A DNA stretch of 64,000 bases, from assembly GCA_021826065.1 (NCBI GenBank), contig JAKADY010000010.1:1-64000 (forward strand), read 5' to 3'. Of this stretch, positions 19,635-32,855 are shown piece after piece (position 1 is the stretch's first letter; the number at the start of each line of letters is the position of its first letter). The notes beneath the pieces are model-generated. The model did not search any database and was not told the origin of the DNA. It saw only the letters and a program-made list of their open reading frames with translations. This DNA comes from Pseudomonadota bacterium. GTDB lineage: Bacteria > Pseudomonadota > Gammaproteobacteria > Burkholderiales > Thiobacillaceae. A program made the translations under genes and the position numbers.

Positions 19635-21685
<2,051 letters not shown>

Positions 21686-21686
<1 letters not shown>

Positions 21687-21751: not shown

Positions 21752-21787
21752 GCGGGCCGGACGCATGTCCGGCCCGCTTTGTTTTTG
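21752..21787 (+). terminator. Rho-independent terminator of hppA
   Basis: An 11-bp GC-rich stem GCGGGCCGGAC/GTCCGGCCCGC with a GCAT loop (21752-21777) is followed by TTTGTTTTT. Confidence 0.9.
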
Positions 21788-21916: not shown

Positions 21917-23290
21917 ATGAAAATCAAAACCCTGACCCTCGCCCTCACGCTTGCCGCCAGCACCCATCTGCTGGCCGCGGAACAGGCCCCCGCCGGCAGC
22001 GCACTGGCCGGCCAGCCGGACAAACCCGTGCCGCAGAGCCCAGAGGCCTGGCTTGCGCGCATGACCGACTTCACGCAAAACCTTTCCGCCTTCCGCGACC
22101 CGCGCGTCTTCATCCCCTGGTTGAACACCGTCACCGAACCCAATTTCTACACGGCCGCCCTGATCGGCATGCAGGACCCGGTGGGCTGGCTCAACATGTT
22201 GAACAGCATGGTGAACCCCAACGCCTACCGCAACTGGGCCCAGTTCGCCGACCCCGCCATCACCATGCGCTGGCTCGCCGCCGGCGCCGACCCGGCCTTC
22301 TACACGGCGCTCACCACCATCCTGACCGATCCGGGCAAGGCCATGCGCTGGGCCCTGTGGCCGGCCGATCCCAAGCTCTGGGGGGCGATGCTCAACCTCC
22401 TGAACCCCGGCCTCTATCTCAAGTGGACCCTGGCGCCCCTGGACCCGCGCGCCTTCAGTCTCATGGCCAACGTCGCTAATCCGGCCACCTACATGGGCTG
22501 GATGGGGGCGATGATGGATCCGCGCACCTACGGGCCGACCTGGGCCAACCTGCTGACCTATCAGCCCATGCCACCGGCCGCCCAGGCCAACCCCTGGGCC
22601 CCGCCGGCTGGCGCACAAGCGGTCGCGCCCTTCGATCCGAATGCGCTTGCGAGTATGTTCGGCGGCTTCGGCCAGCCTGCGCCCGCAGCACCCGCAGCGA
22701 CCGCACCCGCCCCGGCAACGCCGCCGGCGGCCGCGGCCCCCGCCGCCAAGGTACAGGAGGTGGCCAAGCCGGCCGAAGCGCCCAAGATGGCCGAGGCCGC
22801 AAAACCGGTGGAGGCGCCCAAGGTCGCCGTGCTGCCGAAACCCGCTGAGACGGCCACCCCTGCAGCCGCGCCCGCGCCGAGCGCACCGGCACCCGCACCC
22901 ACGGTGAGCAAGGTGGTGCTCTCGGGCGACACCCTGTTCGCCCTCGGCAAATCCGGCATCCGCGACCTGTCCAGGGAGGGCAGGCAGCGGCTCGATGAAG
23001 TGGCCGAAAAGATCAAGGCCCTGGGCGAGGTCGAACAGGTCAAGATCGTGGGGCACGCCGACGCCACCGGCAAGCCGGAGGCCAACCGCAGGCTCTCCGA
23101 GGCCCGCGCCCGTTCGGTCAAGTCCTACCTGGTGGCCAAGGGGGTGAAGCCCAGCGTCATCATCACCAGTGGCCTGGGCGATACCCAACCGGTGGTGCAG
23201 TGCGACATGAAGCAGCCGAAGGACAAGCTCATCGAGTGCCTGGCGCCCAACCGGCGTGTGGAGATCGAGGTCGTCGGCAAGGCTCGTTGA
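21917..23290 (+). CDS. OmpA-family outer-membrane protein with DP-type tandem repeats
   Basis: The 457-aa product has a signal peptide (about residues 1-20). Residues 61-213 form twelve consecutive 12-13-residue repeats, each starting with Asp-Pro, Asn-Pro or Glu-Pro and usually carrying an aromatic three residues later and Trp/Met further on. A long Ala/Pro/Lys linker and a C-terminal OmpA peptidoglycan-binding domain (about 330-457) follow, with the GHADATGKPEANRRLSEARA motif. The start at ATG 21917 has AGAGGAAA upstream. The repeat region has no known fold; a surface or scaffold role is inference. Confidence 0.8.
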   Translation: MKIKTLTLALTLAASTHLLAAEQAPAGSALAGQPDKPVPQSPEAWLARMTDFTQNLSAFRDPRVFIPWLNTVTEPNFYTAALIGMQDPVGWLNMLNSMVNPNAYRNWAQFADPAITMRWLAAGADPAFYTALTTILTDPGKAMRWALWPADPKLWGAMLNLLNPGLYLKWTLAPLDPRAFSLMANVANPATYMGWMGAMMDPRTYGPTWANLLTYQPMPPAAQANPWAPPAGAQAVAPFDPNALASMFGGFGQPAPAAPAATAPAPATPPAAAAPAAKVQEVAKPAEAPKMAEAAKPVEAPKVAVLPKPAETATPAAAPAPSAPAPAPTVSKVVLSGDTLFALGKSGIRDLSREGRQRLDEVAEKIKALGEVEQVKIVGHADATGKPEANRRLSEARARSVKSYLVAKGVKPSVIITSGLGDTQPVVQCDMKQPKDKLIECLAPNRRVEIEVVGKAR

Positions 23291-23709: not shown

Positions 23710-25842
23710 TCAGGTGGTGATGCGGCGGTAGATGTCGGCCACCTTGAAGGGCAGCATGCCGACGTCGTCGAGGATGATGAACCGGGCGGCGCCGTACATG
23801 TGCGGCAGGTAGTCGCGCGCCTCGCGGTCGATGGTGATGCAGAAGGGGTGGATGCCGGCGCGGCGTGCCTCGATCAAGGCCATGCGCGTGTCCTCGACGC
23901 CGTAGGCGCCGCGGTAGACGTCGAAGTAATCGTCGGGGCGGCCGTCGGACAGGGTCACCAGCACCTTGGTGCGCGCCTCCACCGCCTTGAGCAGCTTGGT
24001 CAGGTGGCGGATGGCGAAACCCATGCGCGTGTACTCCTGCGGGCGGATGCCGCTGATGCGCGCCTTGACCTCCTCCGTGTAGGGTTCGTCGAAGGTCTTG
24101 ATGCGGTACAGCTCGCAGCGCTTGCGGGTGATGCCGGAGAAGCCATAGATGGCGTAGCGGTCGCCCAGGCGCTCCAGGGCCTCGCACAGCAGGATCAGCG
24201 CCTCGCGCTCGGCCTCGTTGATCCAGCCGCGGGTACTGCCGGACATGTCCACCATGAAGGCGACGGCGATGTTGCGCTCGGCGCGGTGCAACCGCACGAA
24301 CAACCGCTCGCTCATCTCGCGCCCATCGCGGGCGTCGGCCAGGGCCTCGACCAGGGCGTCGATGTCCACCTCGTCGCCATAGGCCTGGCGCTTCATGAGG
24401 CGGTTTTCGTCACGCATCGCCTCGAAGGCGCGGCGCAGGCCCTTGATCGTGCCGGTGTGCCGTTCCAGGGTCTGGCGGTAGAAGTCGTCGTAGACCGGCT
24501 TGACCTCCTTCTCGCGCATGACGCACCAGTTCTTGCGGTAGTGCTGGCGGCCGTGATCCCATTCCGGGTAGAGCTCGGCGCCCTCCTCGTGATAGGTGCC
24601 CTGCCAGACCGCGTCCGGATCGGCGGCCTGTTCTTCGTAGAGACTGGCGTCGTATTCGCCGGGCCCCGCCGGCACCAGGTATTCCGGCGGGATCTCACCG
24701 AAGTCCAGCCAGACGGAGGTCATCAACTGCCTTACGTCTTCGGGCGGTGGGATCGGTGCGCCGTCCAGGGTGAGCTCGAGGTCCAGGCGGCCATCCTCCT
24801 CATGGACTAAAGCGGCAAAGCCGCGCTTTTCGGGCTCGGCGGCCGTCTCCTGGGGGCGTGCGGCGTCGTCGCGATGCCGACGCAGCTCCTCTTCAAGCTG
24901 GGCGAGCTTGATGCGCAGGCGCGCCTTTTCCTTGCCGACGCGCGCGGCGCGGGCGGTGGCGACCGCCTCGGGCCGCAGCTCGCCCTGATAACAGCGGGGT
25001 GGGAAATCGGGCAGGGCATAGGCCTCGGCCAGAAGGGCCAGGCTGTCCTCGACCTGGGCCTCGGGACGCGCCAGGCGTTCGCTTAAGTCGAGCCAGGCGG
25101 CGGGGAGTTCCTCGCCGATCAAGGCCGATAGGCGCTGCATCTCCCGGTGCAGACCGGGTAGCTCGCGGCCGATGCAGGCGGTGAGCCGCAGGGTCTCCAG
25201 GCCGTGGAACTGGGCAAGCGCCCGTTCGGGGTGGGGATAGTCGGCGCAGGCGGCCTGCAGGTCGGCGCGCAGGGTGCCAAAGCGGGTCTGCGCCCACAGC
25301 AGCGCCACACTTGCCTTGGCCAGCTTGAAATTGTCCTCCTGACCGGCGAAGCGGGCGGTGATGGCGGGCAGAAAGATGCGTTCACCGTCGGTGTAGGCGG
25401 TCTCGCCCTGCTCCAGCTTGAGCCGGCGGCCGGCCAGGCCATGCAGGAAGTTGCCGAGCACCCCGGCGATGTCCTCGAACAAGGCGCCGGCGGTGTGCTC
25501 GGCGCGCACGTGCATGAAGCCCCGGACCTCGTCGGCCACGCGGATGGCGGCATACATGCCGGCGCGGTCGTAGGTGTCGCACAGATGCACGGCCCAGGCC
25601 TCGATCGCACGGCGGTCCAGGCGCTTGAGGAGATCGGGGGCGCGCTGCGCGAAGCGGAAGGCCAGCGTGATGTGCGTGCTGGCGATGCGCCTGATCCAGT
25701 CCAGCACGAAGTCCTGGTCATCGCGCGTCAGACGGCATAGGGCGCGGGCGACCGGACCGACGTTGTGGAAGGTGAACTCGGTCTCCAGCCACTGGTCGAG
25801 CAGCCGCTCGATCTCGACGCGGGTGAGCTGGGCTTCAGGCAC
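23710..25842 (-). CDS. cbbO: CbbO/NorD-type VWA-domain protein
   Basis: CbbO pairs with the AAA+ protein CbbQ as a Rubisco activase in chemoautotrophs. The 710-aa product has a long helical N-terminal part, an acidic central part, and a C-terminal VWA domain (from about residue 520) with the MIDAS motif DMSGSTRG near residue 530. The start is GTG at 25842. NorD, the NO-reductase counterpart, is the closest alternative; no nor genes are in the window and the CbbQ-like partner favours the CbbO reading. Rubisco genes are not in the window. Confidence 0.75.
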   Translation of the reverse strand: MPEAQLTRVEIERLLDQWLETEFTFHNVGPVARALCRLTRDDQDFVLDWIRRIASTHITLAFRFAQRAPDLLKRLDRRAIEAWAVHLCDTYDRAGMYAAIRVADEVRGFMHVRAEHTAGALFEDIAGVLGNFLHGLAGRRLKLEQGETAYTDGERIFLPAITARFAGQEDNFKLAKASVALLWAQTRFGTLRADLQAACADYPHPERALAQFHGLETLRLTACIGRELPGLHREMQRLSALIGEELPAAWLDLSERLARPEAQVEDSLALLAEAYALPDFPPRCYQGELRPEAVATARAARVGKEKARLRIKLAQLEEELRRHRDDAARPQETAAEPEKRGFAALVHEEDGRLDLELTLDGAPIPPPEDVRQLMTSVWLDFGEIPPEYLVPAGPGEYDASLYEEQAADPDAVWQGTYHEEGAELYPEWDHGRQHYRKNWCVMREKEVKPVYDDFYRQTLERHTGTIKGLRRAFEAMRDENRLMKRQAYGDEVDIDALVEALADARDGREMSERLFVRLHRAERNIAVAFMVDMSGSTRGWINEAEREALILLCEALERLGDRYAIYGFSGITRKRCELYRIKTFDEPYTEEVKARISGIRPQEYTRMGFAIRHLTKLLKAVEARTKVLVTLSDGRPDDYFDVYRGAYGVEDTRMALIEARRAGIHPFCITIDREARDYLPHMYGAARFIILDDVGMLPFKVADIYRRITT

Positions 25843-28848: not shown

Positions 28849-30870
28849 TTAGTGCGCGGCGGTCTTGAACAGCTTCGACTTGTCCACCAGGTCGACGTGG
28901 GCGCGCTTGAACACGGTCCACTTCTTGGTGGTCTTGTCGTAGACGGAGTTGACGAAGCAGTGCCAGTTCTCCTCGTCGATGAAGTTCTTGTCGGCGCGAT
29001 AGTAGAAGCCCGGATAACGGGTCTCCTCACGGAACTGGATGTGCTTCATGTGGGCCTCCGCCGTCAGGATGCGGTGGTAGTTTTCCCAAGCCCGCAGCAG
29101 CTCGTGCAGGTCCTTGGCGCGCATCTTCTCGGCGTCTTCCTTCAGCATGGTCAGCTTCTCTTCAGCCACCTCCAGCATCTTGGCGTTGGTGGTGTAGTAG
29201 GTGGCCACGCCGGCGACATACTCGTCCATGATCTTCTGCAGGCGGAACTGCAGCATCTTGGGCGTGATGTAGTGCGGGTTGACGTCGATGGCGGTGGTGT
29301 AGTCCTTGAACTCCAGGTAGTTACGCACCGGCTTGTAGATCTCCTCGACGAGCTGCTCCACCGGGGTGTCGAGCTCTGGCTTGAGGTCCTTGTGGTCGAG
29401 GCAGTACTTGACCATGGCCTTGGCGGCGATACGGCCCTCGGCGTGCGAGCCGGAGGAGAACTTGTGGCCGGAGGCGCCCACGCCGTCGCCAGCGGTGAAC
29501 AGGCCCTTGACCGTGGTCATGCCGCGATAGCCCCAGTGCCAGCCGGAGGGCAGGTGCGCCGGGATCTTGTCCTTCTCGGGGTGGGTCTCCTCGGTGGGCG
29601 CGCCCACGTCCTCGGGACCGGACACCCAGATGCCGCAGCAGCCGGAGTGGGAACCCAGCAGGTAGGGCTCGGTGGGCATCAGCTCGGAGTTCTTCTTCTC
29701 CGGCTCGATGTTCTCGCCGACCCAGATGCCGCACTGACCGACGCACATGTCGAGGAAGTCCTCCCAGGCCTCGGCCTCGAGGTGCTTGACCTCACGCGGG
29801 GACAGGGTCTCGCGCAGCTTGGCGAGCGCGGTCACGGTGTCCATGTAGATGGGACCGCGGCCTTCCTTCATCTCCTTGAGCATGAGGTGGTTGCGCAGGC
29901 AGGAGGCGGGCACGGCGGCCTGACCGTACGGAGGATAGTCGTTCAGCAGCTCCTTGTTGCGCTGCATGTAGACTTCGCCGAAGGCGTTGACGGCCTGGGC
30001 CTTGAACAGCAGGAACCAGGCGCCCACCGGGCCGTAGCCGTCCTTGAAGCGGGCGGGCACGAAGCGGTTTTCCATCATGGTCAGCTCCGCGCCGGCCTCG
30101 GCGGCCATGGCGTAGGTGGAGCCGGCGTTCCACACCGGGTACCAGGCGCGGCCGGTGCCCTCACCGACGGAGCGCGGACGGAAGATGTTCACGCAGCCGC
30201 CGGCGGCCAGCAGGATGGCCTTGGCCTTGTAGACGTAGACCTTGTGCTCGCGCACGGAGAAGCCGACGGCACCGGCGATGCGGTTCTTGTCGTTCTTGTC
30301 GTTGACCAGCTTGACGATGAACACGCGCTCCTGGATGCGGTCCATGCCCAGCGCCTTCTTGGCGGCCTCGGCGACGATCCACTTGTAGGACTCGCCGTTG
30401 ATCATGATCTGCCACTTACCGGAACGCACGGGCTTGCCGCCGTCCTTGAGCGCGGGCAGACCCTGGGCGCCGTCGTGACGCTCGCCGTTCTCGTCGGTCT
30501 TCCAGATCGGCAGACCCCACTCCTCGAACAGGTGGACGGAGTCGTCGACGTGGCGGCCGAGATCATAGGCCAGGTCGTCACGGGTGATGCCCATCAGGTC
30601 GTTGGAGACCATGCGGGCATAATCGGCGGGGTCCTGCTCCGGGCCGATATAGGTGTTGATGGCGGACAGGCCCTGGGCCACGGCGCCGGAACGGTCCATG
30701 GCGGCCTTGTCGACCAGCTTGATCTTCAGATCCACGCCGGCTTCGGCCTTGGCGGCATCGGCCCAGCGCATGATCTCGTAGGCGGCGCCGCAGCAGGCCA
30801 TGCCGCCACCGATCAACAGGATGTCGACCTCTTCCTGGACGACTTCGGGATTACCAAATTCACCAGCCAT
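28849..30870 (-). CDS. aprA: Adenylylsulfate reductase, alpha subunit
   Basis: AprA is the FAD subunit of APS reductase; in sulfur oxidisers the AprBA complex runs in reverse, joining sulfite and AMP to APS with release of two electrons. The 673-aa product has the FAD-binding ILLIGGGMACCGAAYE motif near the N-terminus, the AVAQGLSAINTYIG segment and the TAGDGVGASGHKFSSGSH motif. The start matches the conserved MAGEFGNPEVV end. It follows aprB by 21 nt. No aprM or qmo genes are adjacent, so the membrane electron acceptor must be encoded elsewhere. Confidence 0.96.
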   Translation of the reverse strand: MAGEFGNPEVVQEEVDILLIGGGMACCGAAYEIMRWADAAKAEAGVDLKIKLVDKAAMDRSGAVAQGLSAINTYIGPEQDPADYARMVSNDLMGITRDDLAYDLGRHVDDSVHLFEEWGLPIWKTDENGERHDGAQGLPALKDGGKPVRSGKWQIMINGESYKWIVAEAAKKALGMDRIQERVFIVKLVNDKNDKNRIAGAVGFSVREHKVYVYKAKAILLAAGGCVNIFRPRSVGEGTGRAWYPVWNAGSTYAMAAEAGAELTMMENRFVPARFKDGYGPVGAWFLLFKAQAVNAFGEVYMQRNKELLNDYPPYGQAAVPASCLRNHLMLKEMKEGRGPIYMDTVTALAKLRETLSPREVKHLEAEAWEDFLDMCVGQCGIWVGENIEPEKKNSELMPTEPYLLGSHSGCCGIWVSGPEDVGAPTEETHPEKDKIPAHLPSGWHWGYRGMTTVKGLFTAGDGVGASGHKFSSGSHAEGRIAAKAMVKYCLDHKDLKPELDTPVEQLVEEIYKPVRNYLEFKDYTTAIDVNPHYITPKMLQFRLQKIMDEYVAGVATYYTTNAKMLEVAEEKLTMLKEDAEKMRAKDLHELLRAWENYHRILTAEAHMKHIQFREETRYPGFYYRADKNFIDEENWHCFVNSVYDKTTKKWTVFKRAHVDLVDKSKLFKTAAH

Positions 30871-30891
30871 TGTCTTTACCTCTCAGTCTAT

Positions 30892-31371
30892 TCAAGCTTG
30901 CTTGCGGATCAGCTCGGCGGGGTTGCCGGGACGGTAGCCCTTGGCGTACTCGGTGGTGAAGAACCCGGGCTTGGTGATGTCGGCCAGCTTCACCGTAGGC
31001 TTGCCGCCGTAGGGGTCGATCGAGCCCTCGGGCGTGGTGCGGATCGGGAACTTGAAGCGCTTGAGCGTGCCGTTGCGGAACTTGATGGTCCACATGATGG
31101 AGTCGGAACCGCGCAGCGGCTGAACCTGACCGCCCAGGGGCACGATGTCGGCATAGTGGCGCACCTCGATGGCCTGTTGCGGGCAGATCTTCACACAGCT
31201 GTAGCACTCCCAGCACTGCTCGGGTTCCTGGTTGAAGGCCTTCATGGCGTGGCCGGTCTCGGAACCGTCTTTGTCCAGCTTCATCAGGTCGTGCGGGCAG
31301 ATGTACATGCAAGCGGTCTTGTCCTGACCCTTGCAGCCGTCGCACTTGTCAGTACGGACGTAGGTAGGCAT
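30892..31371 (-). CDS. aprB: Adenylylsulfate reductase, beta subunit
   Basis: AprB carries two [4Fe-4S] clusters that take electrons from AprA. The 159-aa product starts MPTYVRTDKCDGC and has the two ferredoxin-like cysteine sets (CDGCKGQDKTACMYICP and CWECYSCVKICP). AAGGAG sits upstream, partly inside a 14-bp palindrome. The upstream in-frame start at 31398 would add nine residues and is less likely. Confidence 0.96.
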   Translation of the reverse strand: MPTYVRTDKCDGCKGQDKTACMYICPHDLMKLDKDGSETGHAMKAFNQEPEQCWECYSCVKICPQQAIEVRHYADIVPLGGQVQPLRGSDSIMWTIKFRNGTLKRFKFPIRTTPEGSIDPYGGKPTVKLADITKPGFFTTEYAKGYRPGNPAELIRKQA

Positions 31372-31384
31372 CGAACTTCTCTCC

Positions 31385-31398
31385 TTGTTAGCTAACAA
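31385..31398. promoter_or_regulatory. 14-bp perfect palindrome upstream of aprB
   Basis: TTGTTAGCTAACAA is self-complementary over all 14 bases and ends about 14 nt before the aprB start, overlapping the ribosome-binding site. It could be an operator or a translation-control element; no known regulator is implied. Confidence 0.4.
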
Positions 31399-31499
31399 TC
31401 CGCGCGGTTGACGCGGCCCTTCGAAATCCGGGCCCCACCTTGGCCGGGGCGTATCGCGAATCCGCTTCCGGCGGGCCCGGGGATTACGAATCCAACTTG

Positions 31500-31640
31500 T
31501 GAAAGCCGCTTCAGCGGCTCTCTTTGCTCACCTCTCACCCCCTCACCCCCATCCCCTCCCCCGCTGGCGGGGGAGGGGAGCTTCAAGCGGCTATCGCCGG
31601 TTGGCATGCTGGAGGGGCGGGGGGTGAGGGGACCGTCCAT
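31500..31640. repeat. CCCTCACCCC-type intergenic repeat between aprB and sat
   Basis: The interval from 31399 to 31646 holds no gene. It contains a GC-rich hairpin AGCCGC/GCGGCT and a long imperfect inverted repeat built from CCCTCACCCC, CCCTCCCCC and GGGGGAGGGGAG. Similar sequence recurs near 55985 and 60235. Confidence 0.6.
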
Positions 31641-31646
31641 GTACGG

Positions 31647-32855
31647 TCAGGCGGCCGAGTGGCCTTTCAACTCCACCTTCACCTTCTCGTGCTCGGCCAG
31701 GCTGGCGTAGTACTTCTTGAGCACCTCCGCCACCTCAGGCCGGCTGAAGGTGGCCGGCAGGTCCTGTCCCTCAGACAGCATTGCCCGCACCTTGGTGCCC
31801 GACAGCAGCACGCGGTCCTCCTTGGTGTGCGGGCAGGTGCGCATGGAGGCCATGCCGCCGCACTTGTTGCACCAGAAGGTCCAGTCGATCTTGAGCGGCT
31901 GGGTCTCCAGCGACCCGGCGGGGATCTCGTCGAAGATCTTCTGCGCGTCGAACGGGCCGTAGTAGTCGCCCACGCCGGCGTGGTCGCGGCCGACGATCAG
32001 GTGCGAGCAGCCGTAGTTCTGGCGGAAGAGGGCGTGCAGAAGGGCCTCGCGCGGGCCGGCATAGCGCATGTCGAGCGGGTAGCCGGCCTGGATCACGGTG
32101 TTCTTGACGAAGTAGTTCTCGATCAGCACGCGGATCGCCTCTGTGCGCACCTCGGCCGGGATGTCGCCCGGCTTGAGCTTGCCCAGCAGGGAGTGGATCA
32201 GCACCCCGTCCATGGTCTCGATGGCGATCTTGGCCAGGTACTCGTGCGAGCGGTGCATGGGGTTACGCGTCTGGAAGGCGGCGATGCGCGTCCAGCCGAG
32301 CTCCTGGAACTTGGCGCGGGTCTCGGCCGGGGTCATGAACTGCTCGCCGTATTTGGCCTTGAAGCCGCCGTCGGAGAGGACCTTGACCGGGCCGGCCAGG
32401 TTGTACTTGCCCTGGGCCATGACCATCTTCACACCGGGATGCTCCAGGTCGGTGGTCTTGTATACCTGCATGCACTCGTGTGCCTTGTCGATGGTGTACT
32501 TCTCGGTGATCTTCATGGTGCCCATGATCTCGCCCGACTCGCCATCGACCAGGGCCACCTCGTCGCCGGCCTTGACACCCTCGTCATCGGTGGAGAGGGT
32601 CACGGGAATGGGCCAGAACAGCCCGTTGGCCATCTTGTAGCCGTCGCACACGCCCAGCCAGTCGGAGTGGGTCATGAAACCGTCGAGCGGGGTGAAGCCG
32701 CCGATGCCCATCATGATCAGGTCACCGGTTTCGCGGGAGGTCATCTTGACCTGCTTGAGGGATTGGGCGCGCGCCTTCTCGGCAGCGAGCGCCTCACCGG
32801 TCAGCAGCAGCGGCTTGAGCTCACCGCCACCATGGGGATTGACGAGACGGGACAT
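31647..32855 (-). CDS. sat: ATP sulfurylase (dissimilatory type)
   Basis: Sat converts APS plus PPi to ATP plus sulfate in sulfur oxidisers, the substrate-level phosphorylation step after AprBA. The 402-aa product has [11 protein letters not shown] (the HxxH loop), [12 protein letters not shown] and a [13 protein letters not shown] zinc-binding motif seen in dissimilatory Sat. It lies upstream of aprB in the same direction, 275 nt apart. The AT-rich 32940-32975 segment may carry its promoter. Confidence 0.97.

Follow-up and report, generated by a model that had tools for sequence, protein, structure and literature searches.

A new family of short Asp/Asn-Pro repeats, predicted to be helical and secreted, joined to an OmpA-like domain in a Thiobacillaceae genome

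A stretch of 64,000 nucleotides from a Thiobacillaceae genome (contig JAKADY010000010.1, positions 1 to 64,000; the window) encodes a protein in which a chain of short units, each opening with Asp, Asn or Glu followed by Pro, precedes an OmpA-like domain. The locus raises the question of whether these units belong to any known repeat family, and what a protein of this build might do in the cell envelope. The gene and its parts are the following:

21752..21777, plus strand: intrinsic-terminator-like hairpin with an 11 bp stem and a T-rich tail (pattern match; 1 found versus 1.1 expected in shuffles)
21917..23290, plus strand: gene of the DP-repeat/OmpA protein, 457 amino acids and a stop codon, with GAGGAAAG ahead of the ATG
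21917..21979, plus strand: signal-peptide-like N-terminus, residues 1–21 (MKIKTLTLALTLAASTHLLAA), without a lipobox Cys, seen in the sequence, with a similar N-terminus in all relatives
22034..22081, plus strand: conserved block ahead of unit 1, residues ~40–55, around SPEAWLARMTDFTQN, with Trp and RMTDFTQN invariant in 16 homologues
22097..22555, plus strand: twelve DP/NP/EP units of 12–13 residues each, residues 61–213, predicted to form a chain of short helices that start at DP
22592..22906, plus strand: Ala/Pro/Lys-rich low-complexity linker, residues ~226–330, seen in the sequence
22955..23212, plus strand: OmpA C-terminal peptidoglycan-binding domain (Pfam PF00691), residues 347–432, whose D...LSxxRA motif includes Asp382 and Arg397

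Translation from the ATG at 21917 gives 457 residues (coding part 21917–23287, plus strand), and a mechanical listing of open reading frames contains an alternative TTG start nine codons upstream. The gene is flanked by a H+-pyrophosphatase gene (19635–21686) and a cbbO-like gene (23710–25842, minus strand), with the hairpin located 3' of the former, between it and the repeat gene. The same genomic slot is common to the related loci L001, L002 and L009, and the repeat gene is therefore probably a transcription unit of its own. On the minus strand, a small secreted cbb3-type cytochrome c (PF13442, 25849–26190) is encoded between cbbQ-like and cbbO-like genes, which form a RuBisCO-activase pair; L001 has this cytochrome gene as well. 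Beyond this region, at 28849–32855 (minus strand), are genes that we take, by sequence only, to be aprA, aprB and sat of dissimilatory sulfur oxidation.

The preliminary description had divided residues 61–213 into twelve units of 12–13 residues opening with Asp/Asn/Glu-Pro, mostly with an aromatic residue at position 5 and Trp or Met at position 8, and this division is borne out. The dipeptides stand at residues 61, 74, 87, 100, 112, 125, 138, 151, 163, 176, 188 and 201, and the units fill exactly 22097–22555. Counted as D/N/E-P dipeptides at a spacing of 11–15 residues, the observed chain is 12 long, versus at most 5 in 20,000 shuffles of residues 21–330 and at most 4 in 20,000 shuffles of the repeat segment itself. 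Position 5 is aromatic in 10 of the 12 units and position 8 is Trp or Met in 9. The single unit, however, is not the actual period. Profile autocorrelation over 16 homologues yielded mean unit scores of 16.6 at lag 2 and 16.4 at lag 4, compared with 6.8, 8.4 and 8.3 at lags 1, 3 and 5 and −11 ± 6 at random offsets. Units two apart are more alike than neighbors, and the true repeat is therefore a two-helix pair of ~25 residues. The hydrophobic positions in 16 homologues are 5 (Y/W/M/F), 8 (W/M), 9 and 12 (M/L/A), which would place them on one helix face, and Met at these positions is swapped mainly for Leu and Ala.

The repeat part is under purifying selection. Of 185 alignment columns, 44 do not vary over 16 homologues; among them are residues specific to single units and the RMTDFTQN block, and the longer motif at residues ~40–55, PEAWLxRMTDFTQN, is largely invariant. 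The dN/dS of the repeat part in two close relatives (0.027/0.369 and 0.100/0.560, or ~0.07–0.18) is close to that of the OmpA part. The number of units is steady at 12–13 in many close relatives, where shorter chains reflect a lost or altered dipeptide. The region is thus a constrained domain and not a drifting tandem array.

The C-terminal part is recognized by PF00691 with an E-value of 7e-19 and 68.4 bits, above the cut-off of 27.2, while NCBIfam equivalog scores all lie far below their cut-offs. The conserved Asp and Arg of OmpA-like domains bind diaminopimelate. Both are kept in the window protein, as Asp382 and Arg397 within GHAD...LSEARA, and peptidoglycan binding is predicted. A location in the periplasm or on the surface had been suggested; the signal-peptide-like N-terminus and the OmpA domain with these two residues argue for the periplasm.

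For the repeat part, no Pfam or NCBIfam entry was found at E-values up to 10, and Pfam gave nothing convincing for the repeats of 16 relatives of the window protein. PHROGs matched the OmpA part only, and a window-type profile found nothing in a sequence-profile search of the PDB. These negatives, together with those of the fold comparison below, uphold the initial impression that no named family has this pattern. The two candidates mentioned at the outset, pentapeptide and HEAT variant repeats, did not turn up in searches with the window protein. The period of 12–13 residues, the all-helical prediction and the lack of a Pfam match are inconsistent with pentapeptide repeats; no HEAT Pfam entry matched in any member tested, and the helix pair of ~25 residues falls short of the ~30–45 required for HEAT. 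Nor was the STI1/HOP DP entry (PF17830, gathering score 29.1 bits) matched by the window protein at E-values up to 10. The units constitute a new repeat family, for which a mechanism can be inferred.

The family extends well beyond the window protein. Named relatives (L001–L016) come from assemblies of Thiobacillus, Parasulfuritortus, Gallionellaceae and Hydrogenophilales. The repeat domain is present in 52 of 117 genomes of the Thiobacillaceae (27 of the 59 better ones), with 2 to 10 matches in each, and is rare in the phylum as a whole, with a match in four of 398 sampled genomes, the window's own included. A mobile origin was rejected, with no match found on plasmids or in viral contigs. 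The window's own genome contains five paralogs of the domain, on contigs C55, C21, C37, C8 and C24. Only the window copy is fused to OmpA, and the C8 copy adjoins a separate gene for an OmpA domain. Signal-like N-termini are present in all members. The earlier label of an OmpA-like repeat protein is right for the window protein, but the majority of the family bears no likeness to OmpA.

In a tree, the repeat domain of the window's clade clusters with non-OmpA paralogs of the same genomes, apart from the OmpA-fused proteins of the same slot; L014 was scored there as lacking OmpA, its gene being cut by a contig end. This grouping is at odds with the genomic slot, which hints at gene conversion between paralogs or at an independent OmpA fusion.

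The single clear carrier outside the Thiobacillaceae in the phylum-wide sample, G103, led to distant relatives in three further genomes of its order (G519, G527 and G552). These proteins contain up to ~20 DP units and are very rich in Met. The window-type and distant groups align in hhalign with a probability of 97.4% and an E-value of 1.3e-11, and a reciprocal sequence search also matches; common descent is likely, short of proof since repeats inflate such statistics. In the distant group the repeat is linked to DUF302, being fused to it in G519, whereas in G103 and G527 a DUF302 gene comes directly after the repeat gene. The three repeat proteins, one fused and two followed by a DUF302 gene, are located as follows:

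L092:2936-4366, minus strand: DP-repeat protein linked to DUF302
L073:6867-8750, plus strand: DP-repeat protein linked to DUF302
L090:161-1927, plus strand: DP-repeat protein linked to DUF302

This linkage represents a functional link between two uncharacterised families. DUF302 has been called a sox-operon protein in Acidithiobacillia (PMC10512742); literature searches gave nothing that bears directly on the repeat protein, or on DUF302 in connection with sulfur.

Through these distant relatives the family weakly resembles known helical repeats. Sub-threshold matches to STI1-HOP_DP, in distant relatives only, reached 22.8, 18.4 and 18.1 bits versus the cut-off of 29.1, and UBQLN1 also appeared. 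The distant-group profile matched HEAT-like alphaRep designs in the PDB with an E-value of 5e-7 (0.06 for the best single stretch) and Sgt2 with 0.075. The family is therefore not entirely without likeness to known helical repeats. GerD passes its Pfam cut-off in one distant relative, which shows that composition can drive such scores.

Structure prediction, as proposed at the outset, was performed with AlphaFold2 and an alignment of 16 sequences, on which the model rests. It yielded an all-helical chain of short helices, each DP-capped, with a helix starting at nearly every DP (pLDDT 83, pTM 0.65), and a similar pattern at lower confidence with a Met-rich homologue placed first (pLDDT 75, pTM 0.58). 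Short helices with Asp/Asn-Pro at each turn, a feature of STI1, are thus present in the models. Foldseek found no significant match to the predicted model in the PDB or among viral structures, and VIA-align none at Z of 2 or more; nothing was matched in the comparison with STI1, although short flexible folds are easily missed.

The reading tentatively preferred, with somewhat less than even confidence, is that of a wall-tethered helix array with a hydrophobic groove that binds hydrophobic clients of the envelope. It builds on the repeat with its conservation, paralogy and purifying selection, on the OmpA domain, and on the predicted helices and export. After export to the periplasm, the protein would be anchored to the cell wall through its OmpA domain, the flexible Ala/Pro-rich linker serving as a tether. 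In the front domain, short amphipathic helices would be packed into a compact array, with Asp/Asn-Pro at the start of each as both a helix cap and a sharp turn. Unit positions 5, 8, 9 and 12, with their aromatic and Met/Leu side chains, would share one face, with helix pairs every ~25 residues, and these faces may form a flexible hydrophobic groove. The groove could reversibly bind its clients as does the STI1 “helical hand” of Sti1, Sgt2 and ubiquilin, which is rich in Met and kinked by Pro. Candidate clients are lipids, membrane-protein segments or zero-valent sulfur. The paralogs that lack OmpA would be soluble versions of the wall-tethered window protein. The steady 12–13 units with their unit-specific invariants appear to fit a defined binding domain. 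Against this reading stand the lack of a PDB fold match, STI1 included, the sub-threshold STI1 scores of the distant relatives, and the window protein itself, which has no STI1 score and only 7% Met. The likeness to STI1 may also come from composition and helix-cap chemistry, because GerD, CPSase and alphaRep score similarly or better in distant relatives.

Zero-valent sulfur or a lipid as the client is attractive but unproven; the repeat occurs in sulfur oxidisers, and in G103 a distant copy follows dsrE2, tusA and two FadL/TodX porin genes. FadL/TodX as a partner was rejected: it is adjacent in G103, and among the matches listed for Thiobacillaceae only one pair lies within a few kb (G415:C42), by a rough estimate about the level of chance. 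Of the 52 genomes with the repeat, 22 have a high-scoring FadL (E-value below 1e-70), versus 57 of the 65 without (Fisher p 3e-7), a statistic that ignores kinship and in which genus and assembly fragmentation are confounders.

The repeat domain could instead be a helical solenoid that serves as a protein-protein scaffold, docking one specific partner in the periplasm or outer membrane and anchoring it to peptidoglycan via OmpA. The fusion to OmpA here, the separate OmpA gene beside the C8 paralog, and the DUF302 fusion in one distant genome with adjacency in two more all point to partners. In Thiobacillaceae, however, the genes mostly stand alone with no conserved operon partner, the neighbors differ among paralogs, and the DUF302 genes of the window's genome are on other contigs, which makes a scaffold rather doubtful. 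An Mla operon partner was rejected. In several genomes a divergent mlaFEDCB-like operon is the neighbor of the C21-type paralog, but the neighbors of other paralogs differ, and the adjacency therefore looks like inherited gene order. In L004, L005, L008, L010, L011, L016 and L077, one non-OmpA paralog has a fixed place next to an mlaFEDCB-like operon and a DUF72-like gene that is divergent.

A structural role is unlikely, and a little more so than a scaffold. Met/Tyr/Trp-rich helices would self-assemble into a layer on the outer membrane, or a coat on sulfur in the periplasm or outside the cell, and the OmpA version would fasten it to the wall. The many stand-alone genes per genome for small secreted proteins rich in Met and aromatics would suit such a coat, as would the sulfur-oxidising habit of the family, in which 113 of 117 genomes have a dsrA-type match, and the dsrE2 and tusA genes ahead of the distant copy. 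Yet nearly all genomes have dsrA, whether or not they contain the repeat, so that co-occurrence cannot discriminate and an assignment as sulfur-globule protein on that ground was rejected. The sequence matched no named family of globule proteins, and close relatives hold a steady number of individually conserved units, unlike simple structural repeats. Met-based binding of copper or silver in the periplasm is very improbable, and copper binding was rejected. Relatives reach 22% Met and have no Cys, which would favor it, but only two Met columns are invariant in 16 homologues, and in the others Leu, Ala, Gly or Val takes the place of Met. Met makes up just 7% of the window protein, and the repeat domains, with no Cys and at most one His, offer no classical metal site.

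A conserved, multi-copy repeat family, predicted to be secreted, thus exists in chemolithoautotrophs and is absent from the protein-family libraries and the literature searched. If the Met-rich groove of the preferred reading is real, it would offer a candidate means by which sulfur oxidisers carry lipids, segments of membrane proteins or elemental sulfur across the aqueous periplasm. A wider and more speculative proposal, which we consider doubtful, is that bacteria possess extracytoplasmic Met/aromatic-rich “helical hands” that handle hydrophobic cargo in the envelope of sulfur oxidisers, perhaps lipids or zero-valent sulfur, in OmpA-tethered and DUF302-linked forms that use an STI1-like principle as independent inventions or very distant kin.

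The window protein shares with OmpA/Pal/YiaD-type proteins the predicted signal peptide and the C-terminal PF00691 domain with its Asp and Arg, but it has no β-barrel and no lipobox, and its N-terminal half is the DP-repeat domain. HEAT-like alphaRep designs are similarly two-helix α repeats with “DP..vepl” phrases, although their unit is ~31 residues instead of ~25 and neither a HEAT Pfam match nor a fold match was obtained. The C-terminal domain of Sgt2/SGTA and the M-domain of SRP54 also have Met-rich, flexible amphipathic helices that cradle hydrophobic segments, and the Sgt2 domain has conserved helix breakers (PMC8010706); they differ in location and architecture and show no significant sequence link (E-value of 0.075 for Sgt2).

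The closest mechanistic analogue appears to be the Met-rich groove of STI1. In a solved STI1 domain, conserved prolines make ~90-degree turns between short helices and Met lines the groove (PMC13083928). STI1/HOP DP (PF17830) and the ubiquilin STI1 domains have short, amphipathic, Met-rich helices with Asp/Asn-Pro turns and ~12 residues per helix, as here. They belong to eukaryotic cytosolic cochaperones with 5–6 helices per domain and TPR or UBA partners, while the DP-repeat family has 12–13 or more helices in one array, is predicted to be secreted and is combined with OmpA or DUF302. Since the similarity is below threshold and seen only in distant relatives, the repeat domain would work like STI1 and is not counted as a member of that family; it may represent a periplasmic counterpart of a chaperone principle of the eukaryotic cytosol.
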